DNA of 64,000 nt from an uncultured SAR86 cluster bacterium (lineage in GTDB: Bacteria > Pseudomonadota > Gammaproteobacteria > Magnimaribacterales > D2472), in contig CACEDS010000004.1 in the NCBI GenBank assembly GCA_902558395.1, forward strand, positions 1 through 64,000, in the 5' to 3' direction. The position numbers and the translations under genes were made by a program. Below, piece after piece: positions 7,908 through 15,173 of the stretch (its first letter is position 1; every line of letters starts with the position of its first letter). The notes beneath the pieces were generated by a model. That model worked only from the letters and a program-made list of their open reading frames with translations. It searched no databases and was not told the origin of the DNA.

Positions 7908-9023
7908 ATGAAACTTAAATCAATTTTTAACATATTGTTAATTATAACTCTTGCTGCATGTGGTGGTGGGGGCGGAGGTTCATCTGAATCTGGCGGTGGA
8001 TCTGGAGGTGGATCTGGAGGAGGATCTGGTGGCGGATCAGGTGGCGGATCAGGTGGTAGCTCTTCGATATATGATGTTGATAAAGATTCATATTGTGCTA
8101 CACCATCCAATGATTCTACTTCATATTGGATTGAAGATTTTTCATCTAATGCATTGGATAATAATATCTTTACATATCAAGAATCGAATGGATTTTGCGT
8201 AATCCCCGGATGTCCAAATGGAGACTCCGACTTTATTTCTGGTTGGGGTAATAACGAAGCTCAATACTATACAAGTTGCAACGAAGGTTATTCAAAGAAT
8301 TGTAATCAAGACCTTAATACTACTGAAAACGCTTTTATTGAAAATGGGTTTCTTAAAATTCAACCAATTTATGACATTGTAAATAAGTTTGAAGATCCTT
8401 ATTGCGCTGATAGATCATGTAACTATACATGGGATTACACATCAGCAAGAATCATGACATCTGGTAAAAAGGTGATATCTCCTGGTAGTGAGATTACAGT
8501 ATGTTTTAAAAATCCAGATGGAATGGGTCATTGGCCAGCTGTATGGATGCTTTCCCAAGGCTTTGTTGAAGGTCAGAAAAGATGGCCTCAAGATGGTGAG
8601 AATGACTTAATGGAACATATGCGAAATCTCCAAGCATACGAAACTCAATCAACAATACATTTTGGATCAAGCGGCTCATCTAGAAATATTTATAAAATAG
8701 AATCTGTTCCAGCTAATGTAGATTTTTATGATAAATTTCATTCTGTAACTCTAAAATGGCAAACTGATAAATTAGAGTATTTTTTAGATACTCAAACCGA
8801 ACCATATTTTACAGTTATTAAAGATAGCCAGACTGAGTTTAATACAGAATACTGGCCTTTTAATGAAGACTTCTATTTGATTATAAATGTAGCATCTGGA
8901 GGAAGCGCCGGTGGAACTCCCGACACTTCAATGTTTTGTCAAGATGCAAGCTGCTCTAATCTAGCTGAACCAGATAGAGGAAGGTTATTAATTGATTATA
9001 TTGAAATTAAATCTATTGATTAA
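7908..9023 (+). CDS. Lipoprotein, glycoside hydrolase family 16 (laminarinase-like)
   Basis: A 371-residue lipoprotein. The signal peptide ends in the lipobox LAAC, with the acylated Cys at residue 18, followed by a glycine/serine linker (residues 19-53) of Gly3-Ser repeats. The rest is a GH16 domain: GHWPAVWML near residue 205, then ENDLMEH, the ExDxxE catalytic motif (nucleophile and acid/base glutamates). GH16 enzymes cut beta-1,3/1,4-glucans or galactans such as laminarin or agar; the exact substrate is unknown. Many cysteines suggest disulfides in the periplasm or on the surface. It overlaps the converging hisIE gene by 11 bases. Confidence 0.85.
   Translation: MKLKSIFNILLIITLAACGGGGGGSSESGGGSGGGSGGGSGGGSGGGSGGSSSIYDVDKDSYCATPSNDSTSYWIEDFSSNALDNNIFTYQESNGFCVIPGCPNGDSDFISGWGNNEAQYYTSCNEGYSKNCNQDLNTTENAFIENGFLKIQPIYDIVNKFEDPYCADRSCNYTWDYTSARIMTSGKKVISPGSEITVCFKNPDGMGHWPAVWMLSQGFVEGQKRWPQDGENDLMEHMRNLQAYETQSTIHFGSSGSSRNIYKIESVPANVDFYDKFHSVTLKWQTDKLEYFLDTQTEPYFTVIKDSQTEFNTEYWPFNEDFYLIINVASGGSAGGTPDTSMFCQDASCSNLAEPDRGRLLIDYIEIKSID
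7992..8063 (+). repeat. 12-bp tandem repeat encoding a Gly-Gly-Gly-Ser linker
   Basis: Five in-frame 12-base units encode GGGS (7992-8051) and a sixth degenerate unit encodes GGSS. The units differ at synonymous positions (GGATCT or GGATCA ends). The repeat forms a flexible spacer between the lipid anchor and the GH16 domain. Its length can change in multiples of four residues without breaking the frame. Confidence 0.93.
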
Positions 9024-9615
9024 TATTTCTTATTTTTAATTCATTAAAAACATCTTCAATAGATTTATTTTGTGATTTTAACAATACTAGTAAATGAAAA
9101 AATAAATCAGAAGCTTCATCAATAAGCCTTCCATCGTTTGTTACAGCTGAAATTGATGTTTCGCCTGCTTCTTCTGTAACTTTTTTTGCTATTTCTTTTA
9201 CACCTTTCTTAAGCAATGAGGAGACGTATGATTTTTCAGAAGACTCACTTTTTCTTTCATTAATTATATCTTCTAGTTCACTTATTATTGAAAAAGAATT
9301 TCTTTTCTCTGATTTAAAGCAAGAATAATTATCTAAATGACATGTTGGCCCAAGCTGTCTTGCTTTAATCAATAATGCATCTTTATCACAATCAAATTCA
9401 ACTGATTGCAACAGTAATTTATTACCTGATGTCTCACCTTTAGTCCAAAGCCTCTGTTTTGATCTACTAAAAAATGTAACTTCTTCAGTTTTAATAGTGT
9501 GTTGAAGTGAGTCTCTATTCATATACCCAAGCATTAAAACATTATAAGAAATTGAGTCCTGAATTATTGCTGGAATTAAACCTCTGTCATCGTAGTTTAA
9601 GTTTTCTATATCCAT
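9013..9615 (-). CDS. hisIE: Bifunctional phosphoribosyl-AMP cyclohydrolase / phosphoribosyl-ATP pyrophosphatase
   Basis: A 200-residue two-domain protein for steps 2 and 3 of histidine synthesis. The HisI part (residues 1-105) has MLGYMN, FFSRSKQRLWTKGETSGN and the zinc cysteine region DCDKDALL..GPTCH. The HisE part (about 110-200) has EEAGETSISA and EASDLFFHLLVLL. It is the last gene of the his operon; hisF lies 2 bases upstream. Its 3' end overlaps the GH16 gene. Domain order is as in E. coli. Confidence 0.95.
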   Translation of the reverse strand: MDIENLNYDDRGLIPAIIQDSISYNVLMLGYMNRDSLQHTIKTEEVTFFSRSKQRLWTKGETSGNKLLLQSVEFDCDKDALLIKARQLGPTCHLDNYSCFKSEKRNSFSIISELEDIINERKSESSEKSYVSSLLKKGVKEIAKKVTEEAGETSISAVTNDGRLIDEASDLFFHLLVLLKSQNKSIEDVFNELKIRNINQ

Positions 9616-9617
9616 AT

Positions 9618-10385
9618 TTAGTACCTTATGTTTATTGATTGTTTTCTTAAAAAGTCTTTAAGTTCACTTATTTTAATTAAGTCTTTATGAAATACACTTG
9701 CTGCAAGAGCTCCACTAGATTCAGTCTTAGAGAGCACTTCTTTGAAGTGATCTTCGATTCCCGCACCTCCAGATGCTATCAATGGAACATCACAATTTTT
9801 TAACATAATATTTAACTGATTGATGTCATATCCATCTCTAACACCATCTTTATTCATGCAATTTAAAACGATTTCTCCCGCACCAAGATTTTGAACTTGA
9901 TCTATCCATGCCTTAGTTTCTATTTGTGTATTTTTTATTGTTTTTTCATCTCCAGTATTTGAATAAACAATATATTTGTTATCTATACATCTAGAATCAA
10001 TACCTACAACAACACATTGACTTCCAAACTCATTTGCTAGCTCTTGAATTAAATTAGGGTTCGCAAGAGCTGGGGAATTAATTGAAATTTTATCTGCACC
10101 ATTGTTTAGAATATCTTTGGCATCTTTAAGATTTTTTATTCCACCTGCAACACAAAAAGGAATATTAATAAGTTCTGCAATCTGTTTAACCCATTCTTTA
10201 GATACAATACCATCATAAGTACTTGCACCAATGTCATAAAAAACTAATTCATCGGCACCATCTTCATTATATTTACTTGCCAAATCTAAAATCGACCCAA
10301 CAATCTCATGATTTTTAAATTTTATACCTTTAACTACATATCCATTTTTAACATCTAAACATGGAATAATTCTTTTAGTTAACAT
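9618..10385 (-). CDS. hisF: Imidazole glycerol phosphate synthase, cyclase subunit
   Basis: A 255-residue TIM barrel: [16 protein letters not shown] at the N-terminus with the catalytic Asp, [23 protein letters not shown] and LIASGGAG phosphate loops, and a second catalytic Asp in [12 protein letters not shown]. With HisH it makes IGP and AICAR from PRFAR and ammonia. It overlaps hisA by 11 bases, consistent with translational coupling. Confidence 0.96.
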
Positions 10386-11094
10386 TTAGCAAATCTCCAA
10401 GCGATATTTTATTTTCATATATAGCCTTACCTACGACACATTCATGGCATGATATTAATTTTAAGTTGTAAATATCATTGATAGAGCCAATACCACCAGA
10501 TGCTATAAGATTTATATTTTTATAATTTAATAGATTTTTATATATATTCAGATTGGGTCCTTGAAGTGTTCCATCAACAGAAATATCAGTAGCTAATATA
10601 TTCTTAATCCATGAGTTTTCATCAATATAGTCAAATAGATTTATATTTGTATTATTTGTCCATCCATCTATTGAAAGAAGAGGGGAGTTTTTAATGATGT
10701 TAAAGTCCAATCCAAATATAATGTTTTCAACATTAATATTTTCTTTTAGATCATTTCTAAATTTAATATCTTTAATAGCTGCTGTACCTACAATAATTCT
10801 TTTTACTTTGTTTGATATAAGATCTTTTGCTTTATCAATCGTTCTTATACCGCCACCAACCTGGATTTCTATATCTTCAATATTTGCAATATCTTTAATA
10901 ATTTTAAGGTTTTCATCACCACCAGTTTTAGCAGCATTTAAATCAACTATATGAATAGTTTTAAAGCCTGCTTTTTTAAAGATATTTACCTGTGTCAAGG
11001 GGTCATTATTATACTCAGTAACCTTAGAATAGTTTCCTTTCACCAACCTAACACATTTACCATTTAAAATATCAATAGCAGGAATTATTTTCAT
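10375..11094 (-). CDS. hisA: Phosphoribosylformimino-5-aminoimidazole carboxamide ribotide isomerase
   Basis: A 239-residue TIM barrel homologous to His[48 protein letters not shown] with the second catalytic Asp, and IASGGIGS. It isomerises ProFAR to PRFAR, the substrate of HisF/HisH. It overlaps hisH by 4 bases and hisF by 11. The standard order hisH-hisA-hisF-hisI is kept. Confidence 0.95.
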
Positions 11095-11666
11095 ATTGAA
11101 TTAATAAAATTTTTTAAAAACACTTCACCTGCTTTGGAAGATTTTTCTGGATGGAATTGACAACCTAAAAAATTATCTTTTTTTATAATCGATGAAAATT
11201 GATTGCCATAAGAGGTAAAGCCAACTGTGTAATCACTGTCTTTATTGAAATAACTATTAGCAAAGTAATAGTAACCATCCAAAGTATCATCAAGCTTACA
11301 TTCGACCTTATTCCAGCCCATCTGTGGAACAGCGATAACATCATTTTTATCAAATTTAGTTACATTTCCTTTAATCAAACCTAAGCACTCAGTATTATCT
11401 TCTTCAGAATAATCAAATAAAATTTGCATTCCTACACAAATTCCAAGTACCGGTTTATTGGTTTCCTTAATAAAGCTAATTAAATTTTTTTTTGACAATG
11501 TTTCCATCACTTTTCCTGCAGAACCGACACCGGGTAATACCAATGCATCCATTTGTATGAGTTCATCAATGGAATTAGAAATAAATGAATCTATATTCAA
11601 TCTTTTAAAGGAATAATAGATTGAATTAAGATTTGCACCTCCACAATCAATAATTCCAATTTTCAT
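11091..11666 (-). CDS. hisH: Imidazole glycerol phosphate synthase, glutamine amidotransferase subunit
   Basis: A 191-residue class I glutamine amidotransferase: IIDCGGANLNSI, LPGVGS for the oxyanion strand, nucleophile Cys in LGICVGMQ, and the His-Glu pair in CQFHPEKSS. It releases ammonia from glutamine for HisF. Its start overlaps the end of the hisD-hisB fusion by 4 bases. Confidence 0.95.
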   Translation of the reverse strand: MKIGIIDCGGANLNSIYYSFKRLNIDSFISNSIDELIQMDALVLPGVGSAGKVMETLSKKNLISFIKETNKPVLGICVGMQILFDYSEEDNTECLGLIKGNVTKFDKNDVIAVPQMGWNKVECKLDDTLDGYYYFANSYFNKDSDYTVGFTSYGNQFSSIIKKDNFLGCQFHPEKSSKAGEVFLKNFINSI

Positions 11667-13537
11667 AGACTTCCTTTGGTTGATGCAATATTTGTATTAT
11701 TTCTCTGTAAAGCTTTACTTAATGCTCTTGTAAAGCTTTTAAAAGTTGCCTCAACAATGTGATGGCTATTTTCTCCTTTAGTTTCTATATGGCAGGTAAA
11801 ATTTAGAGCGTTTACAAAAGATATAAAAAAATGTTCAAACATTTCAGTTGGAAAATCACCAACAAATTCTCTTAATTTGGATGTTTTCATTTTTAAAAGC
11901 GTCCTAGATGCCATATCAATACTTACATTTGAAATAGTTTCATCCATAACTAGTGATTCATTAGATGAATACCTTTCGATATTTTTTCTATCTCCCAGAG
12001 CAGATTTAAATGCTTCACCTAATGCTATAGCAACATCTTCTATGGTGTGATGTTGATCAATTTCTAAATCACCAAAAGATTTTATAGTGATATCAAATTG
12101 ACCATGTTTTGCCAGTTGCTCAAGCATATGATCAAAAAATTTAAGACCGGTATCCACATTATAGTTACCAGTACCATCAATATTTAAATTTATAAATATA
12201 CTAGTTTCTTTAGTAGACCGTTTTATAAAAGAAGTTCTAGGTAATAAGCCTGCATCATTGATAGCATAAATTTCTCTAACTTGTACTGCGTTTGTATGAG
12301 CATCTAAGCTTTCGGCTTCAGCAAGGGTCTTGACTGTTGGAGCAAGAGCAAGAAACCCCTCAGGAGTTGCAGTTTGGAAGGTAATAGTTTTACCAAAGTC
12401 TTTTACAGAGAGTCCAGAATATGTTTTAGCAGCTTGTCCGGTTGGAAGTGTATGATTTGAACCAGATGCATAGTCTCCAAATGATTCAGGTGAATACTTA
12501 CCACAAAATACAGAACCTGCATTGTTAACGTATGGTGCAATTTTTACAAAATCATCATCGATTAATATTAAGTGTTCAGGCGCATTATCATTAATAAAAT
12601 CTATTATTTCTTTGTCATTTTTGGCTTTAACTAAATATGTATTTTTTATACTTTCATTAAGTATAGATTGTCTGCTTAATGATTTTTTTTGATTATTGAT
12701 AGTTGTTTTTATATCTTTAAGCAACTTTTTATTTTTTGAAATTAAAACTGCTTTGGCATCGATACTATGCTCAAGTTGTGAAAGCAAGTCAGACGTTATG
12801 ATATCTACTTTCTCTAAATCGTCTGAAACAACATAAACTTCACTTGGCCCAGCTGGCATGTCAATTGAGATATCTTTACTAACCTGTAATTTTGCTTCTG
12901 TAACATATTTATTACCAGGTCCAAATATCTTAAAGCATTTTGGGATAGACTCTGTTCCATATGCCATTGCAAAAATAGCTTGAGAACCTCCAACTTTGAA
13001 TACATTTTTAATATTTAGTAAGTCAGCAACCCACAATATAGTTGGATTTATTTTCCCATTTTTATCAGGAGGGGTACAAATAACAATATTTGGACAACCC
13101 GCAATAATTGCTGGTATTGCTTGCATTAATAGTGAGCTGAATAGCGGGGCGGTGCCACCAGGTATGTACAACCCAACACTATCAATAGGCCTAAACTCAG
13201 ACCATAAGGAAACACCTTTTGTGGTTTCTATTTTATTAATTGACAATCCATCCAATTGTTTTTCATGATACTTTTTAATATTTGAATATGCTGTAAGAAT
13301 GGCATTCTTTAATTGATCATTAACTAATTCTTTAGCTTTCTTAAATTCAGAGTTACTTACTTTAAATGATTTAATTTCCTTTTCTTTTAAGATTTTAGAT
13401 ATCTTTCTTAAACCATTATCACCTTCATCTACAACAAGTTTTTTAAATTTATTTATAGTTGTAATATCTTTTGATGAAATTTTTGACTCAGTAAACTCTA
13501 AGATCTTAGATTTTTTATTTAATAGTAATTCTTTCAT
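11663..13537 (-). CDS. hisDB: Fused histidinol dehydrogenase and imidazoleglycerol-phosphate dehydratase
   Basis: One uninterrupted 624-codon frame holds two enzymes. Residues 1 to about 430 are HisD: YIPGGTAPLFSS, FGPGNKYVTEAK, PAGPSEVYV, the zinc ligands in SQLEHS, catalytic Glu-His in NAPEHL, and LDAHTNAVQVR near the end. After a linker containing NDAGLLPRT, residues from about 435 are IGP dehydratase: TKET, FFDHMLEQLAKHG, DQHHTIED, EHFF and HHIVEATFK metal motifs, ending ASTKGSL as in E. coli HisB. They catalyse the last and the sixth step of the pathway. hisC, normally between hisD and hisB, is absent, as is the phosphatase domain of E. coli HisB. hisG lies 1 base upstream. Confidence 0.93.
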   Translation of the reverse strand: MKELLLNKKSKILEFTESKISSKDITTINKFKKLVVDEGDNGLRKISKILKEKEIKSFKVSNSEFKKAKELVNDQLKNAILTAYSNIKKYHEKQLDGLSINKIETTKGVSLWSEFRPIDSVGLYIPGGTAPLFSSLLMQAIPAIIAGCPNIVICTPPDKNGKINPTILWVADLLNIKNVFKVGGSQAIFAMAYGTESIPKCFKIFGPGNKYVTEAKLQVSKDISIDMPAGPSEVYVVSDDLEKVDIITSDLLSQLEHSIDAKAVLISKNKKLLKDIKTTINNQKKSLSRQSILNESIKNTYLVKAKNDKEIIDFINDNAPEHLILIDDDFVKIAPYVNNAGSVFCGKYSPESFGDYASGSNHTLPTGQAAKTYSGLSVKDFGKTITFQTATPEGFLALAPTVKTLAEAESLDAHTNAVQVREIYAINDAGLLPRTSFIKRSTKETSIFINLNIDGTGNYNVDTGLKFFDHMLEQLAKHGQFDITIKSFGDLEIDQHHTIEDVAIALGEAFKSALGDRKNIERYSSNESLVMDETISNVSIDMASRTLLKMKTSKLREFVGDFPTEMFEHFFISFVNALNFTCHIETKGENSHHIVEATFKSFTRALSKALQRNNTNIASTKGSL

Positions 13538-13538
13538 A

Positions 13539-14402
13539 TTAATTTAAGACTTTTTCAACAGGCATAACTAGAATAGAGGAAGCCCCCTTAGCTTTCAGTT
13601 TTTCCATAGTTTCCCAAAATATTGGTTCTTGGCATAAAGCATGTATTGCCACTTTATTCTCATTTTCAAGAGGTATAACCGTTGGAGATTCTGATCCTGG
13701 CAATATCTTACAAATTTCTTTAACTTTTGAAGAGTCAGCATTGAGCATTACATATTTACTCTCAATAGCATTTACTACGCCTTGCATTCTACTAATAACT
13801 TTTTCAGCAATCTTTGTTTTAGCAGTTGTTAGTTTTTTATTTTTTATAAGAATAGCTTGGGATTCAAGAATAGTTTCAATTTCTTTTAAATTATTAGCTT
13901 CTAAAGTTGCACCAGACGAAACAAGATCACATATTAGATCAGACATTCCGATATATGGCGTAAGTTCAACTGACCCATGAATATTAACAACAGAGGCATT
14001 AATATTTTTATCTTTTAAGTATTTTTTAACTGTATTTGGATATGAGGTAGCAATTTTTTTACCTTTAAAAGATTTAATACTTATATTTTCTGGGCATGCA
14101 AAAGATAGCCTGCATCTTGAAAATCCCAAATTAAGGACTTTATCAATATAAGTTCTTTTAAATAATGATTTTTCTAGTAATACGTTTTCACCGACTATAG
14201 CTAAATCAGCATCTCCATTTGAAACAAGAGAGGGTATGTCATCGCTTCTTACAAAAAGAATATCAATGGGTAAATTATTAGATTTTGCTAATAAATTATC
14301 ACCTTTAGTTGAGAAATTAATACCAGACTTTTTAATCAAATCAATACTTTGTTCAAAGAGACGACCCTTTTTTTGAACAGCAATAGTTAATCTATTCTTC
14401 AT
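13539..14402 (-). CDS. hisG: ATP phosphoribosyltransferase (long form)
   Basis: A 287-residue long-form HisG with its C-terminal regulatory ACT-like domain, so it should not need HisZ. Motifs: AVQKKGRLFEQS at the N-terminus, DLAIVGENVL, the PRPP loop region CDLVSSGATLEANNL, and SPTVIPL in the regulatory domain. It commits ATP and PRPP to histidine synthesis and is normally inhibited by histidine. The start overlaps the upstream TrpR-like gene by 4 bases, tying enzyme and regulator expression together. Confidence 0.94.
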   Translation of the reverse strand: MKNRLTIAVQKKGRLFEQSIDLIKKSGINFSTKGDNLLAKSNNLPIDILFVRSDDIPSLVSNGDADLAIVGENVLLEKSLFKRTYIDKVLNLGFSRCRLSFACPENISIKSFKGKKIATSYPNTVKKYLKDKNINASVVNIHGSVELTPYIGMSDLICDLVSSGATLEANNLKEIETILESQAILIKNKKLTTAKTKIAEKVISRMQGVVNAIESKYVMLNADSSKVKEICKILPGSESPTVIPLENENKVAIHALCQEPIFWETMEKLKAKGASSILVMPVEKVLN

Positions 14403-14665
14403 TTATTTATCCTTTTAAGAATTCTTTTGTATCCTTGATAAGGCTCGCTTGATAGAAATCTAGCTACCCTAGTTACAGTTGTTGTACTAGTTTTTAATTT
14501 AGCAGCAATCTCCCTATAAGATAAATTATCTTCATATAAAAGTTGTGCTACAGCCCAGCGCTCTTCTAATGCCTTTAATTCAGCAGGTGTACATAGATCT
14601 TTTAAAAAATCATCTACTTCATTTTTACTTTTAAGTAATAAAAATATTTCATTCAAGTTTTTCAT
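14399..14665 (-). CDS. TrpR-like regulator of the YerC/YecD family, likely his operon repressor
   Basis: An 88-residue helical protein with the TrpR-superfamily pattern: LCTPAELKALEERWAVAQLL, then the helix-turn-helix LSYREIAAKLKTSTTTVTRV, ending with a basic tail. YerC/YecD proteins are predicted histidine regulators in some Firmicutes. Here it is the first gene of the his operon, overlaps hisG by 4 bases, and a palindrome lies 10 bases upstream of its start. This makes autoregulation of the operon in response to histidine likely, but that is inference. It is not tryptophan repressor itself, since no trp gene is near. Confidence 0.83.
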   Translation of the reverse strand: MKNLNEIFLLLKSKNEVDDFLKDLCTPAELKALEERWAVAQLLYEDNLSYREIAAKLKTSTTTVTRVARFLSSEPYQGYKRILKRINK

Positions 14666-14674
14666 GCGTGCTAG

Positions 14675-14694
14675 TGTATTACTATGCTAATACA
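14675..14694. promoter_or_regulatory. Candidate operator of the his operon
   Basis: A 20-base inverted repeat, TGTATTA-N6-TAATACA with perfect 7-base arms, lies 10 bases before the start codon of the TrpR-like gene. The sequence TAATAC within it could also serve as a -10 element of the operon promoter. TrpR-family repressors bind palindromes of about this size, so it is a plausible autoregulatory site. Confidence 0.55.
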
Positions 14695-14702
14695 AAGTAA
14701 AG

Positions 14703-14730
14703 TAAAAAAAGGCACTAATTAAAGTGCCTT
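14703..14730 (-). terminator. Terminator after the small membrane protein gene
   Basis: On the - strand, 8-bp arms AAGGCACT and AGTGCCTT with a 6-base loop are followed by a T run (seen as an A run at 14703-14710 on the + strand). It ends the transcript of the gene at 14745-15173 and insulates the his promoter. Confidence 0.85.
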
Positions 14731-14744
14731 AAGATGTAAAAAAA

Positions 14745-15173
14745 TTAATCGCTAGGATTTAACCAGAGTGGTAAAACAGCAATTAATAGACCTGAGATAT
14801 AAAACATCCAGCCACCTAATGTGCTAATCATATTTCCCTCAGCTTGTGCTGCTAGCCAACCCTGTGAACCAGCTCCAAGATCAATATCACCATTTGCAAC
14901 ATCAAGTGCATTTAAAGCCATTGCATGACCTTCGTAGGTCCCATTGATTAATCCAGCTAGATTTAACCCAATTAAAAATACAGATATAGCAAAAGCTGTA
15001 CCAATTAATTTTGCAACGGTATTTGCGCCTTTATCAACCATAACGCTGCTGAATCTTGCAGCAACCCAAACAGCTATTACTGTAGCAAGAAAAATAGTTG
15101 CATTAGCTCCTCTTGAACTTGCAAAAAGGTTCCATAATTCAATCTCATAAGAAACACTTGTAAATAAATCCAT
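14745..15173 (-). CDS. Small multi-pass membrane protein of unknown function
   Basis: A 142-residue protein I do not recognise. It shows about three to four hydrophobic segments: residues 22-45, 55-80 and 115-138, with a more polar stretch (ALDVANGDIDLGAGSQGW) between the last two. It has a strong ribosome binding site (GGGAGGGG, 7 bases before ATG), unusual among the host genes here, so it may be well expressed. The protein at 43966-44346 has similar size, topology and an equally strong binding site and may be a distant paralogue. It is a single-gene unit with its own terminator. Confidence 0.75.
   Translation of the reverse strand: MDLFTSVSYEIELWNLFASSRGANATIFLATVIAVWVAARFSSVMVDKGANTVAKLIGTAFAISVFLIGLNLAGLINGTYEGHAMALNALDVANGDIDLGAGSQGWLAAQAEGNMISTLGGWMFYISGLLIAVLPLWLNPSD

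Follow-up and report, generated by a model that had tools for sequence, protein, structure and literature searches.

A HisR-type regulator and its predicted operator in the core promoter of the SAR86 histidine operon

The his operon and its first gene

The window, i.e., the whole stretch of 64,000 nucleotides analysed here from an uncultured SAR86 cluster bacterium, carries on its reverse strand a compact set of histidine biosynthesis genes in the order hisR-hisG-hisDB-hisH-hisA-hisF-hisIE, in which adjacent genes overlap or lie 1–2 bases apart. The first of them, hisR (14399..14665), encodes an 88-aa protein assigned to the TrpR-fold repressors of the YerC/YecD family and overlaps by 4 bases with hisG (13539..14402), which is of the long form with a HisG_C domain. 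It is followed by a fused hisD-hisB gene (11663..13537), whose 624-aa product joins histidinol dehydrogenase (residues 26-421) to imidazoleglycerol-phosphate dehydratase (residues 463-606), and by hisH (11091..11666), hisA (10375..11094), hisF (9618..10385), and hisIE (9013..9615). The same order was found in 14 of the 15 SAR86 loci read, while the fifteenth stops at a contig edge. As in the proteobacterial HisR regulon, hisR is thus the first gene of the unit, and both the packed gene order and the family score given below bear out an earlier note on this DNA, which had taken a YerC/YecD-type gene for the first cistron of the his operon. The operon is flanked upstream, on the same strand, by a gene for a 142-aa product (14745-15173) that matches neither Pfam nor NCBIfam at 0.001, and on the other side by a convergent forward-strand gene (7908-9023) that faces hisIE and encodes a Glycosyl hydrolase 16 protein in which a long Gly/Ser stretch lies close to the N terminus.

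Of the 55 family genomes in which the hisD-hisB fusion found a match, 50 gave a single uninterrupted one spanning the two domains and the other five gave partial or fragmented ones; moreover, the linker is in frame and free of stops in all 14 loci having both domains. Among the matches listed for sister families, HisD and HisB were hit separately, with HisD at 33–37% identity. Among the 65 of 369 class genomes passing E 1e-70, no further uninterrupted fusion appeared, and G345 and G457 match both domains, but with internal stops. This fusion is not among the his fusions described in the part of PMC1963479 that was covered, and a literature search for a hisDB fusion in histidine biosynthesis returned no publication. 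The hisC gene sits away from the operon, in a neighbourhood read as a pheA-hisC-tyrA-aroA cluster, and inspection by eye of the 70 bases upstream of it revealed no operator. Three Inositol_P genes are present in the genome, none of which was given the role of histidinol phosphatase.

The hisR product scores 76.6 bits against the Pfam family Trp_repressor (PF01371; cut-off 27) and 52.2 bits against the YerC/YecD family TIGR02531, above its curated cut-off of 42.2, while its 37.3 bits against the TrpR family TIGR01321 fall below the curated cut-off of 67.25. Its AlphaFold2 model (pLDDT 94.9) is closest to the solved TrpR-like structures 3frw, 3g1c, and 3kor (Z 11.7–12.4), with 3frw aligning at Z 12.4 and an rmsd of 1.7 over 86 residues, as befits a YerC-type fold, and E. 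coli TrpR ranks next (Z up to 9.8). Although a Z below about 13 is weak by itself for such a small helical protein, the structural match is strengthened by a sequence search that puts the same three chains first. BLASTP aligns residues 26-77 of HisR with residues 44-95 of TrpR without gaps (31% identity over 52 residues), and this alignment places Arg51, residue 62, and Arg66 of HisR at the positions of TrpR Arg69, Ala80, and Arg84, respectively. The recognition helix reads S60-T-T-T-V-T-R66, and TrpR Ala80 is a residue that touches DNA (PMC9413887).

The TrpR fold, the TrpR-like ends of the operator described below, and the alignment of Arg51 with TrpR Arg69 could also suit a sensor of tryptophan, or of another aromatic compound, that stands in a his operon by chance. 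This reading is very improbable, given that the TrpR family score is under its cut-off, that HisR as published keeps only two of the nine TrpR residues contacting tryptophan, and that a published homologue responds to histidine (PMC9413887); the uniqueness of the operator in the genome and the distribution of hisR among SAR86 genomes, both presented in the following sections, argue against it as well.

The palindrome and the predicted promoter upstream of hisR

Directly upstream of hisR lies the predicted HisR operator (14675..14694), a 20-bp palindrome of the 7-6-7 type, TGTATTA-N6-TAATACA, separated from the hisR ATG by 9 bases (14666-14674). The earlier note had announced a perfect palindrome 10 bases upstream; its two arms indeed show zero mismatches, and the spacing was right to within one base. 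A TGTAnTA-type palindrome of 20 bp in this place is what the proteobacterial regulon displays, although the published right half fits less well. When the genome (1.29 Mb in 8 contigs) was scanned for the operator, this was the only exact copy, and no copy with one mismatch was detected. The fact that the only exact site is at the his operon argues against a tryptophan sensor. At up to three mismatches, 13 operator-like sites occur in the window vs 15.2 expected, and 169 in the genome vs 244 for the reversed pattern. Loose matches are thus not enriched, so similarity score alone is insufficient, and it is position and conservation that carry the claim. A wider HisR regulon is not claimed: 11 of the 12 two-mismatch sites in the genome are situated within ORFs of 60 aa or more (in one case just 86 codons long), and the remaining one (L008) is intergenic, between divergent genes that do not look his-related and whose sequences suggest a KdtA-like transferase and an acyltransferase resembling LpxL.

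The palindrome is embedded in what appears to be the core promoter. A -10-like box, TACACT (14673..14678, reverse strand), overlaps the ATG-proximal operator arm and lies 7 bases before the ATG, and a -35-like box, TTTACT (14696..14701, reverse strand), is 17 bp from it and shows a mean pairwise identity of 95% within the genus of the window. The -10 call in this genus depends in part on the TACA of the operator itself, and a consensus promoter scan of the window flags neither the hisR promoter nor its -35-like box. The arrangement was followed in 53 SAR86 upstream sequences, i.e., those of 54 hisR loci minus L034, whose contig ends without an upstream region, and with the orphan locus L060 (see the next section) kept. 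In 51 of these upstreams, a TANNNT box precedes the ATG by 6–7 nt, vs 7.0 expected from shuffles; the other two have it at 8 and 9 nt, and a Shine-Dalgarno-like motif is seen in none of the 53. The best -35-like spacer is 17 in 50 of the 53, a value partly chosen, being the best of five spacings; these boxes are weak, with 3/6 matches in 38 of the 53 under the same best-of-five choice. Box placement and the missing Shine-Dalgarno motif both conform to RNA synthesis beginning at the start codon; hence, judged by sequence only, the hisR RNA of the window is predicted to start at the ATG or within about a base of it, and the SAR86 his operon is probably leaderless.

Relative to the first base of the -10-like box, the operator spans -16..+3 in 17 loci and -22..-3 in 36. 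These two registers are 6 bp apart, whereas the -10-to-ATG distance stays at 6–9. The operator overlaps the -10-like box in the genus of the window and its near relatives; at the other SAR86 loci read, it overlaps the -35-like box instead. Among 36 loci outside SAR86, only one has TANNNT 6–7 nt from any near start, and the higher GC content of many of these sequences makes a TANNNT less likely by chance; a Shine-Dalgarno-like motif is present in 18. Leaderless starts were also considered, and not retained, as a general feature of this genome. In a 264-kb sample (the window plus ten 20-kb stretches), 88 operon-first genes have 13 strong -10 boxes at 5–8 nt from the start vs 7.2 per four positions elsewhere, a weak excess resembling that of the 89 operon-internal genes (7 vs 4.3). 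A Shine-Dalgarno-like motif accompanies 25 operon-first and 20 operon-internal genes.

This geometry bears on the possibility that the operon is governed by RNA, through leader-peptide attenuation, a T-box, or a riboswitch, with the palindrome being incidental. PMC9413887 indeed names RNA attenuators as the control of his genes across Proteobacteria in general, and a terminator-like hairpin with a T run exists at 14709..14730 (reverse strand); inspection by eye shows similar ones in most rows of the genus to which the window belongs, and also in L029, a locus of another genus. However, the hairpin is located upstream of the promoter boxes and behind the 142-aa gene of the same strand, whose transcript it probably ends, and no such hairpin was seen by eye in the remaining SAR86 genera, which keep the palindrome. 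Moreover, an Rfam scan of the whole window returned no family at gathering score, including neither the His leader (RF00514) nor the T-box (RF00230), and an RNA start at the ATG, as predicted from the -10-like box at 6–7 nt in 51 of 53 upstreams, leaves no room for leader attenuation. Together with the conservation of the palindrome far above its flanks, these results render RNA control very improbable, and they agree with the earlier note, which had likewise seen no his leader peptide or attenuator.

Conservation of regulator and site, and residue 62

Proteins 98–100% identical to the HisR of the window are encoded at named loci (L081-L086) of SAR86 cluster genomes. In the SAR86 family, hisG was found in 53 and hisR in 54 of 107 genomes, and all 53 hisG genomes carry hisR. 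Order-wide, hisR occurs in 54 of 203 genomes, every one of them in the SAR86 family. The presence of the regulator in every hisG genome of the family and in a single genome lacking hisG constitutes a further point against a tryptophan sensor. The 54th hisR genome (G027) harbours an unlinked relative with neither hisG nor any his gene near. This orphan HisR-like gene (L060, 2501-2812, reverse strand) is preceded by a poor operator-like site, and its protein has DLMTP for the DLCTP and TRVQRF for the TRVARF of the other SAR86 rows; the orphan regulator may have a different target.

Conversely, hisR is missing in 53 and hisG in 54 of the 107 family genomes; the 10 listed genomes of genus g3 all lack both. 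These absences suggest the loss of the whole histidine pathway together with its regulator, in genomes that are incomplete. G022 and G088 retain hisD-B pieces, and G040 has a hisG match (G040:C1:750813-751670) with an internal TAG and TAA, representing either a broken gene or an assembly error.

The operator itself was compared with the arm consensus TGTDTTA in the 53 SAR86 upstreams. Both arms match fully in 41, while 4 have one mismatch, 7 have two, and 1 has three; thus, 45 of the 53 have no more than one arm mismatch. In 45 upstreams, the operator score is reached by at most 2 of 200 shuffles, and the eight others (L028, L031, L032, L064, L065, L068, L069, and the orphan L060) are imperfect, with 7–46 of 200 shuffles equalling the score. 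Being related to one another, the upstreams do not give independent counts. In the genus of the window, represented by 13 rows with 11 distinct upstreams, mean pairwise identity is about 95% for the operator arms and the -35 box, compared with 61% at -60..-37, 42% at -90..-61, and 63.5% at the third codon positions of hisR. Outside SAR86, 36 of 37 other named loci, mostly from Alphaproteobacteria, match at least 13 of the 14 arm positions under the looser consensus YGTNTYA and without a shuffle control; under the same consensus, and again without that control, a score of at least 12/14 is reached by 31 of another 32 hisR loci, which come from the same class or phylum, and hisG adjoins hisR in 28 of these 32. 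Comparison with relatives was one of the checks proposed in the earlier note, and the palindrome passed it: SAR86 relatives keep it at the same position, as do hisR loci outside SAR86 that are mostly alphaproteobacterial, and within the genus it is far better conserved than its flanks.

The fourth base of each operator arm varies in step with residue 62 of the recognition helix. In SAR86, with the orphan row included, Ala62 is accompanied by T in 49 of 50 half-sites, and Thr62 by A in 37, T in 10, and G in 9 of 56. In 36 non-SAR86 loci whose site scores 12 or higher, Ala is found with T 15, G 4, and A 3 times, and Thr with G 29, A 18, and T 3 times. The raw half-sites of 119 loci amount to 65 T, 5 G, and 4 A for Ala, and to 87 A, 51 G, 25 T, and 1 C for Thr. 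This association was also evaluated on a tree built without the recognition helix, counting independent pairs on the starred branches. With 88 loci and four independent pairs, an average of 3.3 pairs differ in the predicted way, 0.0 in the opposite way, and 0.7 not at all when T is needed in both arms, and 3.1, 0.2, and 0.8 when only the left arm is considered; with 119 loci and five independent pairs, the averages are 3.2, 0.2, and 1.6. Fewer than six pairs cannot reach p 0.05 and, therefore, the link stays below significance. Loci running against the rule include L070, L113, L134, L152, and L201. The rows dropped were L034 (no upstream), L060 (the orphan), L133 (site score <13), and L218 (<12); repeats of SAR86 rows among the 80 named loci were left out, including L095, L097, L103, and L136, which are titled as other groups. 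The 119-locus set added 32 loci (L183-L202 and L212-L223), and the weaker matches L203-L211 and L224-L235, taken for TrpR or others, were omitted, as were positions that yielded no locus. On these alignments, it is suggestive that HisR residue 62 and operator base 4 vary together.

A model of histidine feedback and its known relatives

Taken together, HisR is very likely a TrpR-fold repressor of its own operon that would act with histidine through the promoter palindrome, with DNA binding, histidine as co-repressor, and the RNA start as the predicted elements of this model. The repressor reading is backed by the gene family and fold, the operon, the single exact site and its conservation, the promoter geometry, the co-inheritance, and the residue–base association. 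When histidine is plentiful, histidine-loaded HisR dimers would occupy the palindrome and cover the -10-like or the -35-like box. Since the palindrome lies within the core promoter, binding would exclude RNA polymerase, and the whole unit from hisR through hisG, hisDB, hisH, hisA, and hisF to hisIE would be turned off; conversely, a drop in histidine would release HisR from the operator. With histidine as co-repressor, a role proposed for SAR86 by analogy, the arrangement would combine end-product repression and autoregulation. The direction of control is itself deduced from sequence, and HisR might instead set only its own level, or act as an activator, leaving the his genes unrepressed. Such a role is very improbable, because hisR and the his genes form one tightly packed unit and the site overlaps a promoter box, which is a repressor position.

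More specifically, and with a confidence a little short of even, his control in SAR86 may have been cut to about 40 bp, comprising an operator set within the core promoter of an autoregulated operon that has no leader, with two registers half a DNA turn apart at a fixed -10-to-ATG distance, and with residue 62 (Ala with T, Thr with A or G) setting base 4 of each arm across Proteobacteria. If so, one small protein and a single site would suffice for amino-acid feedback in a small genome, with no need of an RNA leader, and the residue–base association offers a simple swap handle on specificity in the TrpR fold. What is known already is that HisR heads proteobacterial his operons and has a site upstream (PMC9413887), so that the present analysis adds SAR86, a clade of marine bacteria, to the range of a repressor that has been described but little tested. 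The promoter arrangement and the residue–base association met with no description in the literature covered: 'SAR86' and 'leaderless' are absent from the main text of PMC9413887, 'HisR' was not found in the portion of PMC5343134 covered, and a full-text search found no paper with 'leaderless' and 'SAR86'. Likewise, searches on SAR86 histidine, HisR in named gammaproteobacteria, and leaderless autoregulated repressors gave nothing closer than PMC9413887 among the matches listed, as far as the sources were covered.

Regarding known systems, Ashniev et al. (2022, PMC9413887) reported HisR from 51 gammaproteobacterial and 11 alphaproteobacterial genomes, with hisR heading the his operon in the majority of Proteobacteria and its site immediately upstream. 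The SAR86 system resembles these in having a TrpR-family protein as the first gene of the his operon and a 20-bp palindrome immediately upstream. Its site agrees with TGTAnTA, the left half of the gamma/alpha consensus published as TGTAnTArnnnnyTnTTACA; the printed right half, yTnTTACA, is not a mirror of the left and gives a poorer fit. In contrast to the proteobacterial systems described, the SAR86 promoter looks leaderless, the operator is placed in the core promoter, and hisD is fused to hisB. The HisR of Firmicutes, for which histidine-dependent DNA binding was shown in Ruminococcus gnavus (PMC9413887), shares the fold (3g1c, 3frw, and 3kor) and the regulated pathway, but its operator consensus is cacTTTAnnnnnnTAAAgtg, whereas SAR86 has TGTnTTA arms, and its regulons often take in transporters (PMC9413887). 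Hence, the earlier proposal of repressor control as predicted for Firmicutes is supported in its first part, given the conserved palindrome and the missing attenuator, and not in its second, since TGTATTA arms are of the proteobacterial TrpR-like type and HisR in Proteobacteria had already been published (PMC9413887). Finally, E. coli TrpR is alike in its fold, its 20-bp palindromic operator, its autoregulation, and its partial sequence identity; the ligand-contacting residues of TrpR are mostly absent from HisR proteins (PMC9413887), and SAR86 HisR further differs from TrpR in falling under the TrpR family cut-off and in its target, the his operon that it heads.
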